From Acidobacteriota bacterium (GTDB taxonomy: Bacteria > Acidobacteriota > Terriglobia > Acidiferrales > UBA7541), in assembly GCA_003154775.1 (NCBI GenBank), contig PMES01000026.1, positions 62,001-126,000 of the forward strand: 64,000 bases of DNA, read 5' to 3'. This document shows, piece by piece, positions 13,797 to 59,900 of this stretch. The notes under the pieces are model-generated. The model searched no databases and had not been told where the DNA came from. It saw only the letters and a list, made by a program, of their open reading frames with translations. The translations under genes and the position numbers were made by a program. Numbering within the stretch: the first letter of the stretch is position 1; the number at the start of each line of letters is the position of its first letter.

Positions 13797-14126
13797 ATGG
13801 GGAACCACGTTTGTCCGTTGTGCTTTGCGAAGGTGCCGCGAACGCTGATCCTGACGAAAACGCTGGAGGTGAATTGCCCGGCGTGCCACGCAGAGCTGGA
13901 GGTTTCCCGCGGCAGCCGAGTGCTGGCCTCGTTCGTGGGAATCCTGGCAGCATTCGTGGCGGTGCACCTGGGTGGGCAGGCAAGTGGAACAGCCGGATGG
14001 ACTTTGCCGATTGTGGCGGCGGTTGTGTCTTTTGGAGTTTGCTCCGCCTTGGTCCTGATTCTGTTCTCCGAGTTGGCGGTGCGTCCAAAGATTTCTCCCA
14101 CTGCTTTTCCACATATTCACGCGTAA
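13797..14126 (+). CDS. Small zinc-ribbon membrane protein
   Basis: 109 aa. The N-terminal CPLC (residues 6-9) and CPAC (28-31) pairs form a zinc ribbon, followed by two transmembrane helices (about 43-63 and 70-93). I do not recognise a specific family. It stands in a run of small rightward genes; function unknown. Confidence 0.6.
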   Translation: MGNHVCPLCFAKVPRTLILTKTLEVNCPACHAELEVSRGSRVLASFVGILAAFVAVHLGGQASGTAGWTLPIVAAVVSFGVCSALVLILFSELAVRPKISPTAFPHIHA

Positions 14127-35296: not shown

Positions 35297-36511
35297 TTAG
35301 GTGCGATAGGAAGCGTTGATGCGCACATATTCCGCGGTGAAATCACAGGTCCAGAAGCGCGTGGACTCGCGTCCTGCGTGGAGATCGACGACCACCTGAA
35401 CTTGTTTTTCCAGCAGGCGGTTACTGGCCGCGCGCTCGTTGAAGTCAAGCGGCTGACCGCGGTGCAGCACCGGTATTCCCGCCAGGTGGATGTCCACGCG
35501 GTGGGGATCAAACTTGACGCCGGAGCGCCCTGCCGCAGCAAAGATGCGGCCCCAGTTCGGATCGCCGCCAGCAAAGGCGGTCTTGACCAGTGGCGAGGTT
35601 GCGATGGTCTGGGCGATGCGGCGCGCGTCGGCCTCTGTTCTGGCGCGACGCACTTCGATTTCGATGACGCGCTGCGCTCCTTCGCCGTCGGCAACGATCT
35701 GCAAGGCCAGCGAGTGGCAAACTTCTTCGAGAGCTTTGGCGAAGGCGCGGTGCGCAGAGGTTCCCGCTTTGATGGCAGGTGCACCGGCCTGACCGTTGGC
35801 CAGAACCAGCAGCGTGTCGTTGGTGGAGGTATCGCCATCGATGCTGATGGAGTTGAAGGTTCGCGAGGCAACGTCACGCAATGTTTTCTGAAGGAGTGAG
35901 GGAGAAATGGCGGCATCGGTGGCGACAAACGCGAGGGTGGTGGCGAGATTTGGATGAATCATCCCGGCACCTTTAGCGCAGCCAACGAGATGAATGCGCT
36001 TGCCCGCCATCTTGAAGAACGTCGTGGCGGTCTTGGGGCGCGTGTCCGTGGTGCAGATGGCGAGAGAGAACTCGGCAAAAGAGCGCGCGGACGGACGGCG
36101 GTTCCGGGCGATGCCGTTGAGGGCACGGAGAATTTTCTCGAGTGGCAGCGGCACGCCAATGACGCCCGTGGAACAGACCAGAACTTCGTGGGGATGGCAG
36201 GCGAGGCGGCGCGCCGTTTCTTCCACGGTTTTCAGCGAGGCGGCACGGCCTGCGGGACCCGTGGCGCAATTGGCGTTGCCGGCATTGACGATGACGGCCC
36301 GCATGCGGCCCCTGGACGCGCGCAAATTCTCCTTGGAAACCACAACCGGCGGAGCAACAACGAGGTTCTGCGTGAAGACGGCGGCGGCCGAAGCCGGAAC
36401 GTCACTGGAGAGCAGCGCCAGGTCCAGCGCGCCAGTCTTCTTCAGGCCACAAGCCGTGGCCGAGAAACGGAATCCGCGAGGCAGAGCGGCTTCGGAGAGG
36501 GCGTACTTCAT
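35297..36511 (-). CDS. argJ: Bifunctional ornithine/glutamate N-acetyltransferase ArgJ
   Basis: 404-aa enzyme that moves the acetyl group from N-acetylornithine to glutamate, closing the cyclic arginine pathway. It is made as a precursor and self-cleaves before a Thr; the site is visible in [16 protein letters not shown] (second Thr of ATT takes the usual position of ATM/L). The usual SG in KGSGM is AG here. Last gene of the arg operon, 100 nt after argH. Confidence 0.94.
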
Positions 36512-36613
36512 GGGATGAGTGTCCGTGAGGCGGGTGTGACGCTCACGGAAGCGACCTCCGATCCTCCGCGCGGTGCGTTGCGGCTTCGAAAATACTGAAA
36601 GCAGAACTGAGGC

Positions 36614-38023
36614 TCATGGCTTGTTCTCCAGTGATTTGAGTTTTTGTTCGAGCTGCGAAATCGCGGCACGAACAGAATTTTCGGCAGTGCCTCCGGGAAC
36701 GTTTTTGGACTGGAGGGCTGCGGCAAGTTGCAGCGCGTTGGCGACATCGGCGTCAAACGCCGGTGAAATCCGACGGAAGTCCTCGAGCGACAATTGCGTC
36801 CAGGGTTTTGCCTGGCGCTCCGCCTCCCGCAGGAGATTTCCGACAAGATCGTGGGCCTGGCGGAAGGGAATACCCTTTTTGACGAGGTAGTCGGCGGCTT
36901 CGGTAGCAAGTAGAGCGGGATTCGCAGAGGCCGCAGCCAGCTTGCCTTCGTTGAAGCGCATGGCAGAAACAGCCCCAGCGGCGACATGGACCATCGAGGC
37001 AAGCTGGTCGTGAGCAGCGAAGAGGGCTTCCTTGTCTTCCTGGAGGTCACGTTGGTAACTGGAAGGCAGGCCTTTCAGCGTTGTGAAAAGGCTGAAAAGA
37101 GCGCCGGTGATGCGCCCAGTCTTGCCGCGCAGAAGTTCCCAGGCATCGGGATTTTTCTTTTGCGGCATCAGGCTGCTGCCGGTGGAATATTCGTCCGGGA
37201 GGATGGCGTAGGAGAATTCCTGGGAGGCGAATAGAACGAAATCTTCGGCGAGGCGCGAGAGGTGCGTGGCAATGCCAGCGAGGGCGAAGAGATAGTCAAG
37301 CGCGAAGTCGCGATCGCTGACGGCATCGAGGCTGTTGGCAGTGATGCGGGAGAAGCCGAGTTCGCGCGCGATGACTTCGCGATCGATGGCAAACGAACAT
37401 CCCGCGAGGGCGCCGGAGCCCATGGGGCAGGCATCGGCGCTGGCGGCGGCGTTGTGCAAGCGGGTGAGGTCACGCGCAAAGGCCTCCGCGTGGGCCATCA
37501 GGAAATGGGACAAGAGTATGGGCTGGGCATGCTGGAGATGGGTCATGCCGGCCATAGGAACCTTGAGGCGGGCTTTGGCTTGATCCAGGAAAGCGCGGAT
37601 GAGGGCAACCAGGCCTGAGTGAATTTCAGCCACGGCATCGCGGACAAAAAGGCGAAAGTCGGTGGCAACGAGTTCGTTTCGGCTGCGCCCGGTGTGCAGT
37701 TTCCAACCCAGCGGGCCGAGCAACTCGGCCAAGGCCTTTTCGACGAAGTGATGGACGTCTTCGGCGGTTGAAGAATCGAGCCAGGCGAGATCGGTCTTGG
37801 CGCGTTCTGCGATTTTGTCCAGGGCATCGAGAGTTTGAGGAACTTCCGCTTCGTTGAGAATGCCGGCACGCTGCAAAGCCCTGGCCCAGGCGCGGTCAAC
37901 GGCAAGTTCATAGGGGAGAAGGCGGCGGTCGAACGCAAAAGAGCGCTGAAACGCGTCGAACTCTTCGTTCGGCGGGCGATCGAAGCGGCCGCCCCATAGG
38001 CGATCGTCTTTGCGTTCGGTCAT
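36614..38023 (-). CDS. argH: Argininosuccinate lyase
   Basis: Final arginine step: argininosuccinate to arginine and fumarate. 469 aa. Signatures WGGRF near the N-terminus, HTGRSRNE and the flexible catalytic loop GSSLMPQKKNPD are all present. The start at 38023 matches the family N-terminus; an upstream frame extension to 38110 has no family resemblance. Confidence 0.96.
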   Translation of the reverse strand: MTERKDDRLWGGRFDRPPNEEFDAFQRSFAFDRRLLPYELAVDRAWARALQRAGILNEAEVPQTLDALDKIAERAKTDLAWLDSSTAEDVHHFVEKALAELLGPLGWKLHTGRSRNELVATDFRLFVRDAVAEIHSGLVALIRAFLDQAKARLKVPMAGMTHLQHAQPILLSHFLMAHAEAFARDLTRLHNAAASADACPMGSGALAGCSFAIDREVIARELGFSRITANSLDAVSDRDFALDYLFALAGIATHLSRLAEDFVLFASQEFSYAILPDEYSTGSSLMPQKKNPDAWELLRGKTGRITGALFSLFTTLKGLPSSYQRDLQEDKEALFAAHDQLASMVHVAAGAVSAMRFNEGKLAAASANPALLATEAADYLVKKGIPFRQAHDLVGNLLREAERQAKPWTQLSLEDFRRISPAFDADVANALQLAAALQSKNVPGGTAENSVRAAISQLEQKLKSLENKP

Positions 38024-38136
38024 AGGAATCCAAGGTCGTGCGTGAGCTGCAACACCGAGAAAAAGGGCCCCAAATTCCGCACAGCGCTTAGCGGAGGCAA
38101 CGTGCACCACAAGCTATAGCAAATCCCGCAATGGAA

Positions 38137-38184
38137 TGGGGCGCGGCCGCCAGAAACTCTCCCGAGACGGAGCCGCGCCCCGGC
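38137..38184. repeat. Long inverted repeat between argG and argH
   Basis: GGGGCGCGGC and GCCGCGCCCC (10 bp, perfect) separated by 24 nt in the 170-nt argG-argH gap. No T-run follows on the minus strand, so it may be a processing or stability structure within the operon mRNA. Confidence 0.55.
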
Positions 38185-38192
38185 GAAAATTC

Positions 38193-39440
38193 TCAAGAAT
38201 GCTGACTTTCGGCTTTAGCCATGGGACGCACTGTGACCGGCAGAGCGAAAAGATTGATAAAACCCTCGGCGTCCTTGGGATTGTAACGGCCCATGGAAAA
38301 ACTGGCGAGGTCGGCGCGGTACAGAGAGAAAGGCGAGAGACGCTTGGTGACATTGAGCGTGCCCTTCCAAAGTCTCAGGCCGACAGAGCCGGTGACGCGC
38401 TGCTGCGCAACATTGAAGAAGCCATCGAGAGATTCGCGCAGCGGCGAAAACCACAAGCCGTAATAGACGAGTTCGGCGTACCGCCCCGAGAGGGCCTGTT
38501 GGAAGTGGGAGGTTTCCCGGTCGAGAGTAAGCCGCTCCAGTTCGCGGTGTGCGGTGACGAGCAGGGTTCCGCCCGGGGTTTCATAGGCGCCGCGCGATTT
38601 CATTCCCACTAAACGATTCTCGACGAGATCGGTGCGGCCAACGCCATGTGTTGCGGCAATGTCGTTTAATGCATTGAGAAGCGCGACGGGTCCGAGCTTC
38701 TTGCCGTTCACCGAAATAGGCGTCCCCGCTTCAAAGCCAATCTCCACCTCCTCCGGTTTGTCAGGAGCCTTTTCTGGCGATGCAATCCACTGCCACATCG
38801 ATTCGCGGGGCTCATTGGCGAGATCTTCGAGATCTCCGCCCTCGTGACTCAGGTGCCAGATATTGCGATCTCGGCTATAGATGTTGGCACGGCTCTGTTC
38901 CACTGGAACTTTGTGTTTTTGCGCGTAGGCAATGGCGTCCTCACGCGAGTCGATGGCCCACTCACGCCAGGGGGCGATGATGGGGAGGTGTGGCGCGATG
39001 GCTTTGTAGGCCAGCTCAAAGCGGACCTGGTCATTTCCCTTCCCGGTGCAACCATGGGAGAGGCCATCGGCGCCCAGTTGCAGGGCGAGTTCGGCCTGAC
39101 GCTTGGCCAGGACGGGACGAGCCATAGAGGTGCCAAGCAGGTAGGTGTGCTCGTAGACAGCGCCGGCGCGGAGCGTGGGCCAGATGTAGTCGCGGACAAA
39201 TTCTTCGCGCAGATCTTCGATGTAGGCGGTCGACGCGCCGGTGGCAAGCGCCTTTTTGCGGGCGGCCTCGAGATCTTCCTGTTGGCCAACGTCTCCGATC
39301 ATGGCAATCACTTCACAGCCATAATTCTCGCGGAGCCACGGAATAATGATGGACGTATCCAAGCCGCCGGAATAGGCAAGTACGACTTTCTTTGGTTTGT
39401 GGACTTGCGGGGTCACTGGGTTTTCTCCTAAGGATGCCAA
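38193..39440 (-). CDS. argG: Argininosuccinate synthase
   Basis: ATP-dependent joining of citrulline and aspartate. 415 aa. The PP-loop is AYSGGLDTS near residue 22; further signatures are [13 protein letters not shown] and the C-terminal [15 protein letters not shown]. Only 6 nt separate it from argF. Confidence 0.97.
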
Positions 39441-39446
39441 AAGGAA

Positions 39447-40391
39447 TCAGGAATACAGCGCGTGCAGGATGGCCTTTTGCACGTACATGCGGTTTTCGGA
39501 CTGTTTGAGCACAATGGACGTCGGGCCGTCGAGAACTTCGTCGGTCACTTCCGCGCCGCGGTGCGCCGGAAGACAATGCATAAAGAAGGCGCCGGGTGCG
39601 GCCTGCTCCATGAGCTTGCGATTGACCTGGTAGGCCTTGAAGACATTGCGGCGTACCTTTTCTTCGGCCTCGAAGCCCATGCTGGTCCAGGAGTCGGTGT
39701 AGACGGCTTGCGCGCCGACGACGGCTTCCGCTGGGTTGGTGAACAACTCGATGCGCGCGCGGGTTTCCCTGGCGACACGCTTGGCGTCCGAGAGGACGTC
39801 CGGCGCGGGAGCGTAATTTGCCGGCGCGGCGATTCGGAGATTCACGCCCAAGCGCGCAGCGAGGATTAAGAGCGAGTGGCAGACATTGTTGCCGTCGCCG
39901 ACATAGGCGATCTTCAAGCCCTTCAAGTTGCCGAACTTTTCCTCGAGTGTGAAATAGTCAGCGAGCGCCTGGCAGGGATGGAATTTGTCGGAAAGCGCGT
40001 TGACCACGGGGATGTTGATGCTGGCCGCCATCTCTTCCAGGACGCGTTGCTCGTAGACACGCGCGACGATTCCCTGCACCCAGCACTCGAGGTTGCGGGC
40101 CACATCGGGAATGGATTCGCGCTCGCCCAGCCGTGCCTGGGTGTGATCGAGGAAAACCACATCGCCACCCATGCTCTGGATGCCAACCTCAAACGTGACG
40201 CGCGTGCGCAGTGATGGCTTCTCAAAGATGAGAGCAATGTGCTTACCGCGCAGCACGGAGGCGAAACGCGACGGGCGTGCCTTGATGTCCGCGGTGCGCT
40301 GCAGAAGCTCGCGCGTGTCCGCGGGCGACCATTCGGCGCCCGTGAGGAGGTCCTTGGCGATGGATACGGGGATCGTCAGTGATGCGGTCAT
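39447..40391 (-). CDS. argF: Ornithine carbamoyltransferase
   Basis: Forms citrulline from ornithine and carbamoyl phosphate. 314 aa. The carbamoyl-phosphate loop reads KPSLRTRVTFEV (Leu where STRTR is usual), followed by HPCQALAD and the ornithine motifs TDSWTSMG and HCLPAHRG. HCLPA with Leu marks ornithine rather than N-acetylornithine transcarbamylase, in keeping with argJ in the operon. Confidence 0.95.
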   Translation of the reverse strand: MTASLTIPVSIAKDLLTGAEWSPADTRELLQRTADIKARPSRFASVLRGKHIALIFEKPSLRTRVTFEVGIQSMGGDVVFLDHTQARLGERESIPDVARNLECWVQGIVARVYEQRVLEEMAASINIPVVNALSDKFHPCQALADYFTLEEKFGNLKGLKIAYVGDGNNVCHSLLILAARLGVNLRIAAPANYAPAPDVLSDAKRVARETRARIELFTNPAEAVVGAQAVYTDSWTSMGFEAEEKVRRNVFKAYQVNRKLMEQAAPGAFFMHCLPAHRGAEVTDEVLDGPTSIVLKQSENRMYVQKAILHALYS

Positions 40392-40418
40392 TCGTTATTC
40401 TCCACAGGGACAAGAGTG

Positions 40419-41270
40419 TCAGACAGTTGCTCCGGCCGAGTGTTCCGCGGAAGAGAAACCGCGCAGAACACGGGTACCGGGAACAGCGGAAAAGGCCGCG
40501 CGGCCCGAAACGGGCGAAAACAAGGCGGGGGCCAGCGCTGCCGCGGCCGAATGGCCGCCTACAATGTGAACTTCGCGAACGCCACCCTCGAGGGCGCGCT
40601 TGGCGGCTTCCAGCTTCAAAATCATGCCGCCGGAGACAACGCGCGAGTGCACAAGATGGTCGATCTGTTCGCAGGAAATGGCGGAGAGAACTTTGTCGCC
40701 ATCGAGGACGCCGGGGACATCGGTGAGGTACACGAGATGGTCTGCTTCGATGAATTCGGCGCAGGCCGCGGCCATGTGATCGGCGTTGATGTTGTAGAGT
40801 TCGCCGTCCGCGCCCAGCCCGAGGCAAGGGGCAACTGGAATTAGCTTCTCCCGCCAGAGCGATTCGAGAAAAAGCACATTGATGCTCGTCAGATAGCCCA
40901 CATAGCCGAGGCTGCCCTCGATGTCGTTATGCACGAGGGGTGCAGCGGAGAAACAAGCCGCATCCGCCGCGGAGATGCCGACGGCGGGCTGGCCTTCCGC
41001 GGAAATCGCGGCGGCAAGGCGTTTATTCAGCAGCCCCGCAAAAACCATTACAGCGACATCGCGGGTTTCGCCATCGGTGACGCGCAATCCAGAGACGAAT
41101 TTGCTCTCGATCCCAAGACGCTTCAAGGTGGCGGTGAAGAGGCGGCCGCCGCCGTGAACCACCAGGATTTCGTGGCCATGCCGTGCGAGCGTGGCGACGT
41201 GGTGAGAGAGTTGTTGCACGGTGGCGGCATCTTCGAGCAAAGCACCCGCAAATTTGATGACAATTCTCAT
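40419..41270 (-). CDS. argB: Acetylglutamate kinase
   Basis: Phosphorylates N-acetylglutamate. 283 aa of the amino-acid-kinase fold. The motifs VVHGGG, YNINADHMAAACAE and LTDVPGVL are typical. The second residue of the usual KxGG motif differs (VIKFAGALL, Ala for Gly). The N-terminus is compact, without the arginine-sensing helix seen in long feedback-inhibited kinases. Confidence 0.94.
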   Translation of the reverse strand: MRIVIKFAGALLEDAATVQQLSHHVATLARHGHEILVVHGGGRLFTATLKRLGIESKFVSGLRVTDGETRDVAVMVFAGLLNKRLAAAISAEGQPAVGISAADAACFSAAPLVHNDIEGSLGYVGYLTSINVLFLESLWREKLIPVAPCLGLGADGELYNINADHMAAACAEFIEADHLVYLTDVPGVLDGDKVLSAISCEQIDHLVHSRVVSGGMILKLEAAKRALEGGVREVHIVGGHSAAAALAPALFSPVSGRAAFSAVPGTRVLRGFSSAEHSAGATV

Positions 41271-42298
41271 AAAAGTCCGGTCTGCTCCTCAAGTCCAAGC
41301 GTGAGATTCATGTTTTGCACGGCTTGCCCGGCTGCGCCCTTCCCCAGGTTGTCCAGGCACGAAACGATGATCAGGCGTTTCCCGTCGGTGTCCAGAACGA
41401 AGCCGATGTCGCAAAAATTTGTTTTCGTGACGTGCTGCAATTCAGGCGTGGAACCCGCGGGGGAGATGCGCACCATGGGGCGGCCCGCATAAAACTTCTT
41501 ATACAGGTCTTCGATGGCTTGCGGTGTTTGCGGCAGGGCCAGTGTCACGTAGATCGTGGACAGGATGCCGCGGGCAACGGGAAGCAGGTGGGTTGAAAAA
41601 ACCACCTGCGATTCCCGCAGGCCGGTGTGCTCGACAATTTCCGGCGTGTGACGATGCGAGAAAAGATTGTAAGCGCGGAAATTTTCGCCTACTTCGACGA
41701 AATGGAGATCGCGCCGCGGCTCCTTGCCCGCGCCGCTAGCGCCGGATTTACAGTCGCAGATGACGTTTTGCGTCGGCGAAACGAGGCCGGCCTGCGTCAA
41801 CGGGCGCAGCGCGAGAATCACGCTGGTCGCATAGCAGCCGGGATTGGCGACGAGTTTCGCTCCCGGGATGATGTCCGCATAAAGCTCTGGCAGGCCGTAC
41901 ACGGCGTCGCCCAGATGCGCTTGGTGCGGTGCGGGCAGCTTGTACCAGGAAGAGAACGTCTCCGCCGAAGAGAAGCGGAATGCACCGCTCAGATCGATCA
42001 CCCGCAAACCCGCATCGAGCAACTTTGGCCCAATCTCTGCCGAGACTTCGTGGGGCGTGGCGAGAAAAGCCGTACCTGCGGAATTTGCCGTGACCGCCTC
42101 GATGGAAAAAGGCTTCAAAGGCGCCTCGCCCCAACTGCGCAACTGAGGAAAAAGCTCAGAGAGGCACTGTGCGCCCTTGGTATCGCGAACGTAAAAGGTA
42201 GGCCGGGAAATCACGGGATGGCGCAAAAGGAGAGTCGCCAGCTCATAACCCGTGTAGCCGGTGACACCAATGACAGCAATGTGCCGGGGATCCCTCAT
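41267..42298 (-). CDS. argC: N-acetyl-gamma-glutamyl-phosphate reductase
   Basis: NADPH-dependent reductase of 343 aa, third step of arginine synthesis. The Rossmann motif is GVTGYTGYEL, the active-site Cys is in NPGCYAT near residue 155, and HRHTPEI supplies the substrate-site His. It overlaps argR and argB by 4 nt each. Confidence 0.96.
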   Translation of the reverse strand: MRDPRHIAVIGVTGYTGYELATLLLRHPVISRPTFYVRDTKGAQCLSELFPQLRSWGEAPLKPFSIEAVTANSAGTAFLATPHEVSAEIGPKLLDAGLRVIDLSGAFRFSSAETFSSWYKLPAPHQAHLGDAVYGLPELYADIIPGAKLVANPGCYATSVILALRPLTQAGLVSPTQNVICDCKSGASGAGKEPRRDLHFVEVGENFRAYNLFSHRHTPEIVEHTGLRESQVVFSTHLLPVARGILSTIYVTLALPQTPQAIEDLYKKFYAGRPMVRISPAGSTPELQHVTKTNFCDIGFVLDTDGKRLIIVSCLDNLGKGAAGQAVQNMNLTLGLEEQTGLL

Positions 42299-56365: not shown

Positions 56366-57118
56366 ATGCTCATGGAAAACACGATTGTGGATCGCGCACA
56401 CCTGGTGGCGGCCGATACGGCCGTCAAGGTACATGTTGCGCTCATTTGCGATGGCAACGGCCGCTGGGCCACTGCGCGGGGTCTGTCACGCTCGGAGGGT
56501 CACCGCGCGGGGTCAGAAGCGGCACGGCGCATTATCCGGTGCGCGCCGCACCTGGGCATTCACACACTGACGTTGTTCGCGCTTTCCTCCGCGAACTGGC
56601 AGCGCCCACCCGCGGAGGTGGATGCCATTCTGGGGATACTGGAGGAATACCTCCAGGCGGAGACTTCACACTGCCTCGAAGAAGGCGTTCGCCTGAGCAT
56701 CATCGGGCGGCGCGATCGCTTGCCCGCGGGCTTGCGAGCAGCGATTGCCGACGCCGAAGCGCTGACCGCGAAGGGCAAGGCGCTGCACCTGCGATTGGCG
56801 ATCGACTATTCGGCGCGACAAACGATCTACCAGGCGGCAAGCAAGTTTTACAAAGTAACCAACCTTTCCAGCGAGGCGTTCGGCGACCTACTTGCCGAAG
56901 TGCAACGCGGCGGCTCGACTGAAGTGGACCTGCTGATTCGCACGGGCGGAGAACAGCGGCTTTCGGATTTCCTGCTCTGGGAATGCGCCTTCGCGGAATT
57001 CGTTTTTTTGCCGAAGCGCTGGCCGGACTTTATGCCGGTGGACCTGCGGAATGCTGTTCAGGAATTCGAGCGGCGAGAACGGACGCGGGGCTGCCTGCCC
57101 CGGGAGTGCACGGTCTAG
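56366..57118 (+). CDS. Cis-prenyltransferase (UppS family), atypical
   Basis: 250-aa isoprenyl transferase that condenses isopentenyl diphosphate in cis. The catalytic Asp is in HVALICDGNGRWA and the C-terminal RTGGEQRLSDFLLWE plus FLPKRWPDF are family hallmarks. Two usually conserved acidic positions differ: SSANW where UppS has SSENW, and IIGRRDR where it has IGDxSR. The gene is not beside cdsA/frr as housekeeping uppS is, and is preceded by a regulator-type palindrome, so it may make a specialised polyprenol or a shorter product. Confidence 0.85.
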   Translation: MLMENTIVDRAHLVAADTAVKVHVALICDGNGRWATARGLSRSEGHRAGSEAARRIIRCAPHLGIHTLTLFALSSANWQRPPAEVDAILGILEEYLQAETSHCLEEGVRLSIIGRRDRLPAGLRAAIADAEALTAKGKALHLRLAIDYSARQTIYQAASKFYKVTNLSSEAFGDLLAEVQRGGSTEVDLLIRTGGEQRLSDFLLWECAFAEFVFLPKRWPDFMPVDLRNAVQEFERRERTRGCLPRECTV

Positions 57119-57138
57119 CGCGATGGAATCCAGGTGGT

Positions 57139-57597
57139 TCAGTAACGTTCGCGGCGCATGGCGAACGCCTTGCGCAGGATGCGTGTGGCTGTTTCCGTGA
57201 GCTGATACAAAGGCAGTTCGTCTTCCCCGGCGTAGACGAGATCCGTCACATCGCTACCCGCGCGGGCTTCCCCGGCGACACGCTCACAAAGGTAATCGAT
57301 GATCACATAGTGGAAGCGCGGGCGATCCGGCGAGCCTCCCCCTCCCTCCTCCTGATCGATGTAGATGTGATCGAAGGCCTCGATCATCTCCAGGACGCGC
57401 ACCTGCAAGCTGGTCTCTTCCAGTAACTCGCGTGCGACACCTTCCTGTAACGACTCACCAAGTTCAAGGGTCCCTCCGGGGATGGACCAGTGTCCGCGGA
57501 GCGGCTCGCTGCCGCGGCGGATCAGGAGTACGCGCCCGTTCTCGATGACAACGCCACCGACGCCGACGACGGGCCGCTCTGGATATTCACGCGCCAA
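57139..57597 (-). CDS. NUDIX hydrolase
   Basis: 152 aa. The complete Nudix box is GGTLELGESLQEGVARELLEET, of which the key residues are G, E, R-E-L, E-E. The N-terminal VGVGGVVIENGRVLLIRRG and the SIPGG stretch match ADP-ribose/dinucleotide pyrophosphatase-like members. Substrate unknown. Confidence 0.9.
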   Translation of the reverse strand: MAREYPERPVVGVGGVVIENGRVLLIRRGSEPLRGHWSIPGGTLELGESLQEGVARELLEETSLQVRVLEMIEAFDHIYIDQEEGGGGSPDRPRFHYVIIDYLCERVAGEARAGSDVTDLVYAGEDELPLYQLTETATRILRKAFAMRRERY

Positions 57598-57660
57598 GAC
57601 AGGCTTTTCTTTCGTCCGGACTGTTGAGTTACACTGAAACGTGGCGGAAGGGTCCTAGAA

Positions 57661-57689
57661 TTGACATCCCCCGCTGGGGTATATAATAC
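57661..57689 (+). promoter_or_regulatory. Sigma70 promoter of the LysW-like gene
   Basis: TTGACA (57661-57666) with TATAAT at 57682-57687 (15-bp spacer) or TAATAC at 57684-57689 (17 bp). The spacer holds the dyad CCCC-GCT-GGGG. The GTG of the gene follows 60 nt later with GGAGG at 57737. Confidence 0.75.
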
Positions 57690-57749
57690 GCCGGAGGGTG
57701 AAGGCCGCGCTCGCGGCATCGCCAGAAGATCAACACGGAGGATGGAGAC

Positions 57750-58013
57750 GTGCTCCGCTGCCCAGAATGTAGCGCAGAAATTGATGTGGACGAAGACGAA
57801 GTGGAAGAGGGAGAAATCCTGAGCTGCGCGGAGTGTGAGTGCGAGCTCGAGGTATCGCAGACCCACCCGGTCGTGCTGAATCCCATCTCCGACGATCTTG
57901 ACGAAGAAGACGAGGAGGATGAGGAGGACATCGAAGAGGACGAGCCTGACGAAAATGGAGACCTCCCGGATGACGACGAGGATGACGAAGAGGATGATGA
58001 TGAGGATGAGTAG
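57750..58013 (+). CDS. LysW-like zinc-ribbon protein with hyperacidic tail
   Basis: 87 aa. The first 50 residues match the LysW/ArgW amino-group carrier ribbon: CPECSAEIDVDEDEVEEGEI, then CAECECELEV. In LysW a C-terminal EDWGE Glu carries the substrate. Here the end is instead about 38 residues that are almost all Asp/Glu, still finishing in Glu (DDDEDE). The arginine operon in this window is the acetylated type, so this is probably not an arginine carrier. Start GTG 57750 with GGAGG 8 nt upstream. Confidence 0.75.
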   Translation: MLRCPECSAEIDVDEDEVEEGEILSCAECECELEVSQTHPVVLNPISDDLDEEDEEDEEDIEEDEPDENGDLPDDDEDDEEDDDEDE

Positions 58014-58101
58014 CGGCTTCCTCGGGAGCGGCAGGGCATCCTGGGGCCCTGTGAGCATCGTCTAATAGAAAGTGACCCCATTGCCAGGCAAAGTGTCTCC
58101 C

Positions 58102-58566
58102 ATGCGAAAACCGACCTCCTTCTACCTGGGGCTTCTCCTGTTTTTGGCGCACCCTGCTGTAGGTCAACAGCCGACCGAGACCGCACCGGCTGCGTCGCCG
58201 TCGCAACCCCCGGCGACCCCTCCGGACGCATCACGCGCAAGTTCATCTTCAAAGGGAAAGAAGAAGCCGCTTCCCATTTACTTGATCACTGGCACGGTCT
58301 TTAATGAAAAGGTGCTTTCGTTTCCGGATGCAAAGGTTCGCATTCGGCGGACCAGCGAGAAGAAATTCCGGTGGGAGGCGCACACGAATTCCCGCGGGGA
58401 GTTCGCCGTGCGGGTACCGGAAGGCAGCGAATACGAAGTGCGGGTGCAGGTAAAAAACTTCAAGGAACAATCGCAGACGGTGAAGGCGGACGCCGGCTCT
58501 GTTCAGCAGCAGCTATCGTTCCGGCTGGAACCAGCGACGCCGGGAAAGGCGGGAGACAAGAAATGA
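58102..58566 (+). CDS. Exported carboxypeptidase-regulatory-like protein
   Basis: 154 aa. Signal peptide (1-21), a Pro/Ser/Ala linker (22-55), then a beta-sandwich: ITGTVFNEKVLSFPDAKVRI, HTNSRGEFAVRVPEGSEYEV, typical of carboxypeptidase-regulatory-like domains that bind surface ligands. The stop overlaps the next gene by 4 nt. Confidence 0.8.
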   Translation: MRKPTSFYLGLLLFLAHPAVGQQPTETAPAASPSQPPATPPDASRASSSSKGKKKPLPIYLITGTVFNEKVLSFPDAKVRIRRTSEKKFRWEAHTNSRGEFAVRVPEGSEYEVRVQVKNFKEQSQTVKADAGSVQQQLSFRLEPATPGKAGDKK

Positions 58567-58925
58567 AGGCACATCGCAAGATCGCCTACTTCTGGGTGGT
58601 TATGCTCGTATTCGCATGGATCGCCGGCGCGCAGGACTCCAAGAAAGAGTCGCAATTGCGGACCGTGCGCGGGATCGTCACCGACAAATCGGAAACGCCC
58701 CTTCCCAACAGCGTCGTGTTCCTGAAAAACCTGCGGACAAACGCAGTACGCAGCAGCTTCGCGGATTCGGATGGCAACTACCGGTTCAGCGGGCTGGATC
58801 CCAACGTGGATTACGAGGTGCATGCGGAACTTGAAGGGGCGAAATCCCAGGTCAAGACGGTGTCGTCGTTTGACAGCCGCAAGGAAATCACACTCAATCT
58901 GAAGATTGACCGGAAGAAAACTTAG
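58563..58925 (+). CDS. Exported carboxypeptidase-regulatory-like protein, second copy
   Basis: 120 aa. Signal peptide (1-23) and one CarboxypepD_reg-like domain: VRGIVTDKSETPLPNSVVFL, SSFADSDGNYRFSGL, YEVHAELEGAKS. Translationally coupled to the preceding related gene, so the two probably act as a pair in the periplasm or on the surface. Confidence 0.83.
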   Translation: MKAHRKIAYFWVVMLVFAWIAGAQDSKKESQLRTVRGIVTDKSETPLPNSVVFLKNLRTNAVRSSFADSDGNYRFSGLDPNVDYEVHAELEGAKSQVKTVSSFDSRKEITLNLKIDRKKT

Positions 58926-59057
58926 AGACTCCAGGCTTCGTCGCGGGGGCAATTGGCCCGCGATAGTTGGGGAATATGAGGCAAATCGAGTAAGCCGAAA
59001 TCTTCCCGCGATTCACTTGTTTGAGCGGATCTTAGGGGAGCAAAGGCATGGAGGACG

Positions 59058-59900
59058 ATGGTCTGCTGCAGAGTGCATTTTTTCTTCGGGGCAGCCCTGT
59101 GTGCGCTGGCCCTATCCGGGGTGTCTCTGTTCGGGCAAGCAAAGCCGGACAGCCCTGAGCCCAAGATTCCGTCATCCTCGCAAGACGCTGCGTCATCGCC
59201 AGCTTCCCAAACAGCCACTCAAGCTGATCAGAAAGACCACGAAGCCCAGGATGAAGTGCCGAAGCGGATTTTCTGGATCATTCCTAATTTCATGACGACC
59301 AACGACCAACCGGAAAACCAAGGACCGCTCACGCCGGCCCAGAAGTACAACATCGCGTGGCATCAGTTCTTTGATGAGAGCGCGCATTTCGGGAATCTCT
59401 TGCAGGCGGGGATTTCACAGGCGGCAGACGGGATTCCTCACTACGGACAAGGCTGGGGTGCATTCGGAGAAAGATTCGCGGCCCAAGAAGGCGATCAGTT
59501 CACGGGAAGTTTTCTGATTTACGGGATATTGCCAACTATGCTGCACCAGGATCCGCGTTATTTTCGGCGGGGGCGGGGCTCTGCATTGTCTCGCATCGGC
59601 TATGCGGCATCGCGTGTGCTCATCGCGCGCACGGATTCGGGCAAGACCACGTTCAATGCTTCGCAGGTTTTCGGTCAGTTGGGGCAGGCCGGCATCTCAT
59701 TGTCGTATTACGCCAAGCAGGATCGCGATGTGCATGGATTGCTCGTGGGATGGGCGGTCAACCAGGCCTACAACATCGGCTGGAATCAACTGAAAGAGTT
59801 TACGCCGGACCTCAATGCGCTCATCCGGCGGCACTCCAAGAAAAAGCACCAGGCGCCAGCGGACCCCCACGCGGCTCAAGCAGTCACAGGCACAAATTAG
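59058..59900 (+). CDS. Conserved exported hypothetical protein
   Basis: 280 aa. Signal peptide (1-27), a Ser/Ala/Gln-rich linker (28-65), then a helical domain with IPNFMTTNDQPENQGPLTP and YGILPTMLHQDPRYFRRG. The pattern is one I associate with acidobacterial secreted proteins of unknown function. Its 3' end overlaps the convergent lipid kinase by 4 nt. Confidence 0.65.
   Translation: MVCCRVHFFFGAALCALALSGVSLFGQAKPDSPEPKIPSSSQDAASSPASQTATQADQKDHEAQDEVPKRIFWIIPNFMTTNDQPENQGPLTPAQKYNIAWHQFFDESAHFGNLLQAGISQAADGIPHYGQGWGAFGERFAAQEGDQFTGSFLIYGILPTMLHQDPRYFRRGRGSALSRIGYAASRVLIARTDSGKTTFNASQVFGQLGQAGISLSYYAKQDRDVHGLLVGWAVNQAYNIGWNQLKEFTPDLNALIRRHSKKKHQAPADPHAAQAVTGTN

Follow-up and report, generated by a model that had tools for sequence, protein, structure and literature searches.

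LysW*, the LysW-like hyperacidic protein named in this analysis, is very probably derived from LysW and no longer an amino-acid carrier. Its gene lies in a 64,000-nucleotide stretch of DNA (the window) from a genome of 4.63 Mb that is 98% complete. The whole scenario comprises descent from lysW, retention of the old lysW locus, loss of carriage and a role as a non-covalent polyanion, and has a probability of about 0.45. In a phylum of major importance in soils, a carrier protein seems to have left its pathway and become a polyanion with a probable housekeeping role, and nearly all relatives keep it. Genes of this type score against the LysW ribbon domain, and an annotator could mistake them for a sign that lysine or arginine is made on an amino-group carrier.

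The LysW* gene and its protein

The ribbon of LysW* matches PF21344 (Zn_ribbon_LysW) with 41.9 bits (E 7.7e-11, cut-off 27), and the protein has phmmer matches to LysW structures. An AlphaFold2 model from 58 related sequences has pLDDT values of 87-89 in the ribbon and 53-64 in the tail. The top matches of the modelled ribbon in the PDB are all LysW (Z 6.5-7.4, 30-40% identity), and Z drops to 3.7 in the rows that follow. The LysW-like ribbon recognised in the earlier note is thus borne out by both the domain and the PDB matches. According to the model, the ribbon probably still folds round zinc, and the tail is predicted to be disordered.

Table. Features of the LysW* locus and of the arginine cluster in the window.
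Feature	Position	Strand	Remarks
argC-argB-argF-argG-argH-argJ cluster	35297-42298	-	acetyl route
NUDIX hydrolase	57139..57597	-	divergent neighbour kept across the order
TTGACA	57661..57666	+	possible -35, 15 nt before TATAAT
GGTATATAATACGC	57678..57691	+	conserved -10-like promoter element
Ribosome-binding site GGAGG of LysW*	57737..57741	+	8 nt before the GTG start
LysW* (LysW-like hyperacidic protein)	57750..58013	+	87 aa, GTG start
LysW-type zinc ribbon, residues 1-47	57750..57890	+	CPEC-18 aa-CAEC; PF21344, AlphaFold2 model, PDB matches
Hyperacidic disordered tail (predicted), residues 48-87	57891..58010	+	composition, pLDDT
DENGDL	57948..57965	+	instance of the [ND]GD[LYM] motif; divides the tail into two acidic blocks
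CBD1	58072..58566	+	predicted secreted, CarboxypepD_reg domain; conserved downstream neighbour
CBD2	58563..58925	+	second CarboxypepD_reg protein; start overlaps CBD1 stop (ATGA)

The tail comprises 31 Asp or Glu residues in the last 38 positions and 33 in the last 41 (80%), and the net charge of the protein is about -46 with a pI of about 4.05. EDWGE is absent from the C-terminus, and together with the composition this confirms that a hyperacidic tail has replaced it. The protein ends in DDDEDE. The claim that the tail still ends in Glu therefore holds for the window protein, but it does not extend to the relatives, where the terminal residue is Glu in 53 of the 70 order loci and another residue in 17. 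A Glu that is still common at this position counts against a non-carrier scenario, but any Glu-rich tail would yield it. Trp is absent from all 70 order tails, and the tail of LysW* contains no additional Cys and few His. The motif [ND]GD[LYM] is found mid-tail in 28 of 32 genus sequences versus 0.5 expected in shuffled tails, a contrast that is inflated by kinship. About half of the tail replacements among close relatives exchange Asp and Glu.

The sequence evidence marks LysW* as a genuine gene that purifying selection maintains, and not a chance ORF: 85 of the 95 order genomes have an orthologue, and the codon changes that separate the ribbons of close relatives are nearly all synonymous (e.g., 20 vs 2). 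Of the 54 genomes that represent the class in the phylum sample, 51 have a LysW-type ribbon (counted by hand from lists, like the other class and family counts), and all 20 fetched class loci from outside the order have an acidic tail. Counts from separate collections overlap, as a few contigs appear under two names and so supply the same locus twice. Metagenome assemblies make up many of the sampled genomes, and the phylum label of at least one record is odd (L180, 'Bacillota'). The related contigs that bear the gene are labelled Acidobacteria, Terriglobia, and Candidatus Acidiferrales, which suggests that the window comes from an uncultured member of Terriglobia in this order. All 70 order loci examined have a GTG start, and their CxxC pairs are always 18 residues apart, compared with 16 or 17 in all 60 EDWG[EQ] proteins. 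The ribbon is strongly conserved across the order as CPEC..EIDVDEDEVEEGEILSCPEC..ELEV.Q.HPV.LN.

Further LysW-like ribbons were also observed. Genome G055 (C18, C19, C22) has three, two of which are divergent. In the window, a second one at 13797-14126 (+) includes MGNHVCPLCFAKVPRTLILTKTLEVNCPACHAELEV, scores 18.3 bits against PF21344, which is below the cut-off, and is fused to hydrophobic segments that are probably transmembrane. A long hydrophobic ORF on the strand opposite LysW* (57522-58058) was rejected as an antisense artefact of the Asp/Glu codons of the gene.

The element [GT]TATATAATACGC is present upstream of LysW* genes across genera of the order. Exact TATATAATA occurs in 61 of 70 order loci, and most of the others are one base off, masked, or cut by the contig end. 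The 14-mer GGTATATAATACGC has a single copy in the window genome with up to one mismatch allowed, and a regulon shared through it was rejected on this count. The element is an unproven candidate for a strong dedicated promoter, possibly common to the divergent NUDIX gene. Its conservation, its uniqueness in the genome, and the good ribosome-binding site suggest that LysW* is highly expressed and abundant. Where a TTGAC box is present in relatives, its spacing is 9 or 15 nt, not 17, and this variable spacing differs from a normal sigma-70 promoter. The TATAAT element of LysW* escaped a sigma-70 scan because the spacer is 15. Rfam has no match in 57000-59100, and a leader RNA or riboswitch before LysW* was discarded.

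Covalent carriage and the lysW locus

LysW needs the motif EDWGE, which LysX recognises and whose terminal Glu serves as the site of attachment (PMC10433800). On the equivalog models, LysW* reaches 20.9 bits against a cut-off of 53.2 (TIGR01206) and 25.8 bits against 75 (NF041070). The window genome contains no PF08443 (RimK/LysX) protein, and 13 of 14 control genomes are positive for it. LysX (TIGR02144) is above its cut-off in none of the 95 order genomes (best 93 bits vs 275.6), and a threshold of E<=1e-20 yields no match to it in any of the 54 genomes of the class. In the neighbourhood table, lysX is within reach of EDWG[EQ] genes at 54 of 60 loci, and is near none of the acidic-tail genes among the loci tabulated. 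Both forms occur in genome G210, where the C119 copy adjoins lysX and the C151 copy has an acidic tail and is near larE. The arginine cluster of the window follows the acetyl route, as the earlier note had stated, since its ArgJ and ArgB score above the cut-offs of their equivalog models, and scores on the [LysW]-kinase models stay below the respective cut-offs.

The lack of a ligase and of the attachment motif, together with an unconserved terminal Glu, strongly argues that the covalent carriage of amino acids has been lost. The earlier note had proposed a multi-site amino-group carrier or a substrate for glutamyl ligases such as RimK, and had named missing LysX-type enzymes and an unconserved terminal Glu as evidence against this; both are observed. 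The LysW fold and the Glu-rich end are in line with such a role. It is nevertheless very improbable given the absence of RimK and LysX from the window genome and of LysX from the order and class, the absence of EDWGE, the variable terminal residue, and the acetyl route. RimK-fold matches do occur in 29 of 95 order genomes, but they do not follow the presence of the gene. Of three that were viewed by eye, two resemble other ATP-grasp proteins and the third resembles the large subunit of carbamoyl phosphate synthase. The carrier or RimK-substrate reading was dropped because its enzyme is missing.

CBD1 and CBD2 are small proteins that are predicted to be secreted, and all 70 order loci have at least one match to them. 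Such a match is downstream and on the same strand in the tabulated order loci and, outside the order, in 19 of 20 class loci; the neighbourhood covers 1.5 kb on each side at the 30 genus loci nearest to the window gene. LysW* probably occupies the old lysW locus after the loss of lysX-argC, because a tandem CBD1-CBD2 also follows a true lysW-lysX-argC on four acidobacterial contigs (L202, L204, L217, and L231). On the simplest reading, the locus lost lysX and argC while lysW was retained and rebuilt, although the synteny comprises four contigs and small common domains. The C-termini outside the class form a graded series of EDWGE, EEDWTE, DEWEE, GWEE, NWDE, and ends with no Trp. This series illustrates a path from EDWGE to a Trp-less tail and is not proof of direction. 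A ribbon tree of 43 columns does not separate one origin of the acidic-tail forms from several, a point against the overall scenario. The apparent loss of lysX-argC could also have left a non-functional lysW relic drifting after the pathway disappeared. This has next to no probability given the near-universal retention in the order and class, the conserved promoter element, and the protein-level conservation of the ribbon, and purifying selection was taken to rule it out.

LysW/ArgW carriers (TIGR01206, NF041070; Thermus LysW 3WWL, 5EIO) have the zinc ribbon fold and the acidic character in common with LysW*. Their ribbons are 30-40% identical to it, and the locus appears to be shared. In contrast, LysW* lacks EDWGE, LysX, and an AmCP operon, has a spacing of 18 rather than 16-17, and carries a 38-residue Asp/Glu-rich tail. 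Streptomyces AmCPs (Vzb22; vazabitide, s56-p1) are LysW-type carriers recruited outside lysine synthesis and are in this respect similar to LysW*. Unlike LysW*, they remain covalent carriers with a C-terminal Glu and a ligase (PMC9303977). In Vicinamibacteria-type Acidobacteriota, the acidic LysW-like proteins encoded next to larE resemble LysW* in their LysW ribbon, long acidic tail, and lack of lysX. Their tails often end in WDE, GWEE, or GWNE, and their neighbour is larE, whereas that of LysW* is CBD1-CBD2. RNA polymerase delta (RpoE) is a bacterial protein with a folded domain and an acidic disordered tail. It shares this plan of folded domain and polyanionic tail with LysW*, but the fold is unrelated and the likeness is an analogy only.

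Candidate roles and the larE neighbourhood

As a tentative assignment at somewhat below even odds, LysW* would be a non-covalent polyanionic adaptor or buffer that is probably abundant. Its gene very probably derives from lysW, which encodes the carrier of amino groups in the synthesis of lysine and arginine. Comparison with the carriers shows that lysX, argC, and the EDWGE end are gone, that the spacing of the CxxC knuckles has grown by one or two residues, and that a long acidic tail has been gained. The strictly conserved acidic ribbon loop DVDEDEVEEGEI may dock a partner, and the disordered polyanion tail may bind or shield basic surfaces or cations. LysW* could then act as an adaptor, chaperone, or ion buffer, produced in quantity from a dedicated promoter. 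In such a role, the electrostatic docking between LysW and its enzymes would have been exapted. These enzymes recognise LysW electrostatically, by charge (PMC9303977), so the keeping and strengthening of the charged surface without the chemistry is a plausible step. On the other side, short disordered acidic tails can arise for many reasons.

Another candidate role concerns larE. Among 22 acidic-tail loci from outside the class, 12 have larE downstream in the same orientation, mostly as the direct neighbour, and the two genes often overlap or lie within 20 nt of each other. The larE neighbours score 314-330 bits against TIGR00268. The adjacency is found in at least eight families of the phylum by coordinate matching done by hand, with the acidic-tail gene directly upstream of larE at L142, L148, L153, L186, L191, L197, and L199-L201, among others. 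LarE and LarC are both encoded in the window genome. These observations suggest that LysW* might dock onto or feed LarE, the sulfur transferase in the route to the nickel-pincer cofactor, as a scaffold, a sulfur or metal relay, or a regulator. This is unlikely for the window gene. No larE was found beside LysW* in the window or among the class loci, genomes G159 and G201 have LysW* and neither LarE nor LarC, and eight class genomes with LysW* are missing LarC. The larE link cannot alone explain the window gene, because it is unseen in the class and two genomes have LysW* without LarE and LarC. Moreover, LarE of Thermotoga maritima is catalytic with only a cysteine desulfurase and cysteine supplied (PMC9283937).

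A metal store, also proposed in the earlier note, or a Zn/Ca/Mn buffer, in which the ribbon and the polyanionic tail bind divalent cations, is slightly less likely again. The high negative charge, the conserved GD motif in the tail, and the high expression expected are consistent with it. The tail is without extra Cys and has few His, and no metal transporter or regulator is recognised among the conserved class neighbours, which argues against it. A far more speculative proposal, with very little chance of being correct, treats the acidic-tailed LysW proteins as a class of protein cofactor carriers or relays. The carboxylate-activating PP-loop LarE would work on or with the tail, e.g., in a sulfur relay through a tail thiocarboxylate, and in Terriglobia the protein would serve another thiolation or metal-delivery enzyme encoded elsewhere.

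A link between acidic LysW and larE is unreported in the literature searched, in which a single paper contains both LysW and LarE and treats them separately. Searches on LysW in Acidobacteria, EDWGE, and the annotation name gave no paper on LysW* by title or abstract, with coverage that excludes subscription papers. The recurrent linkage offers a specific starting point for explaining how Acidobacteriota serve the route to the nickel-pincer cofactor. A CxxC motif and one further Cys are present in the two LarE proteins whose complete sequences were read, as in the [4Fe-4S] LarE of Thermotoga (PMC9283937).
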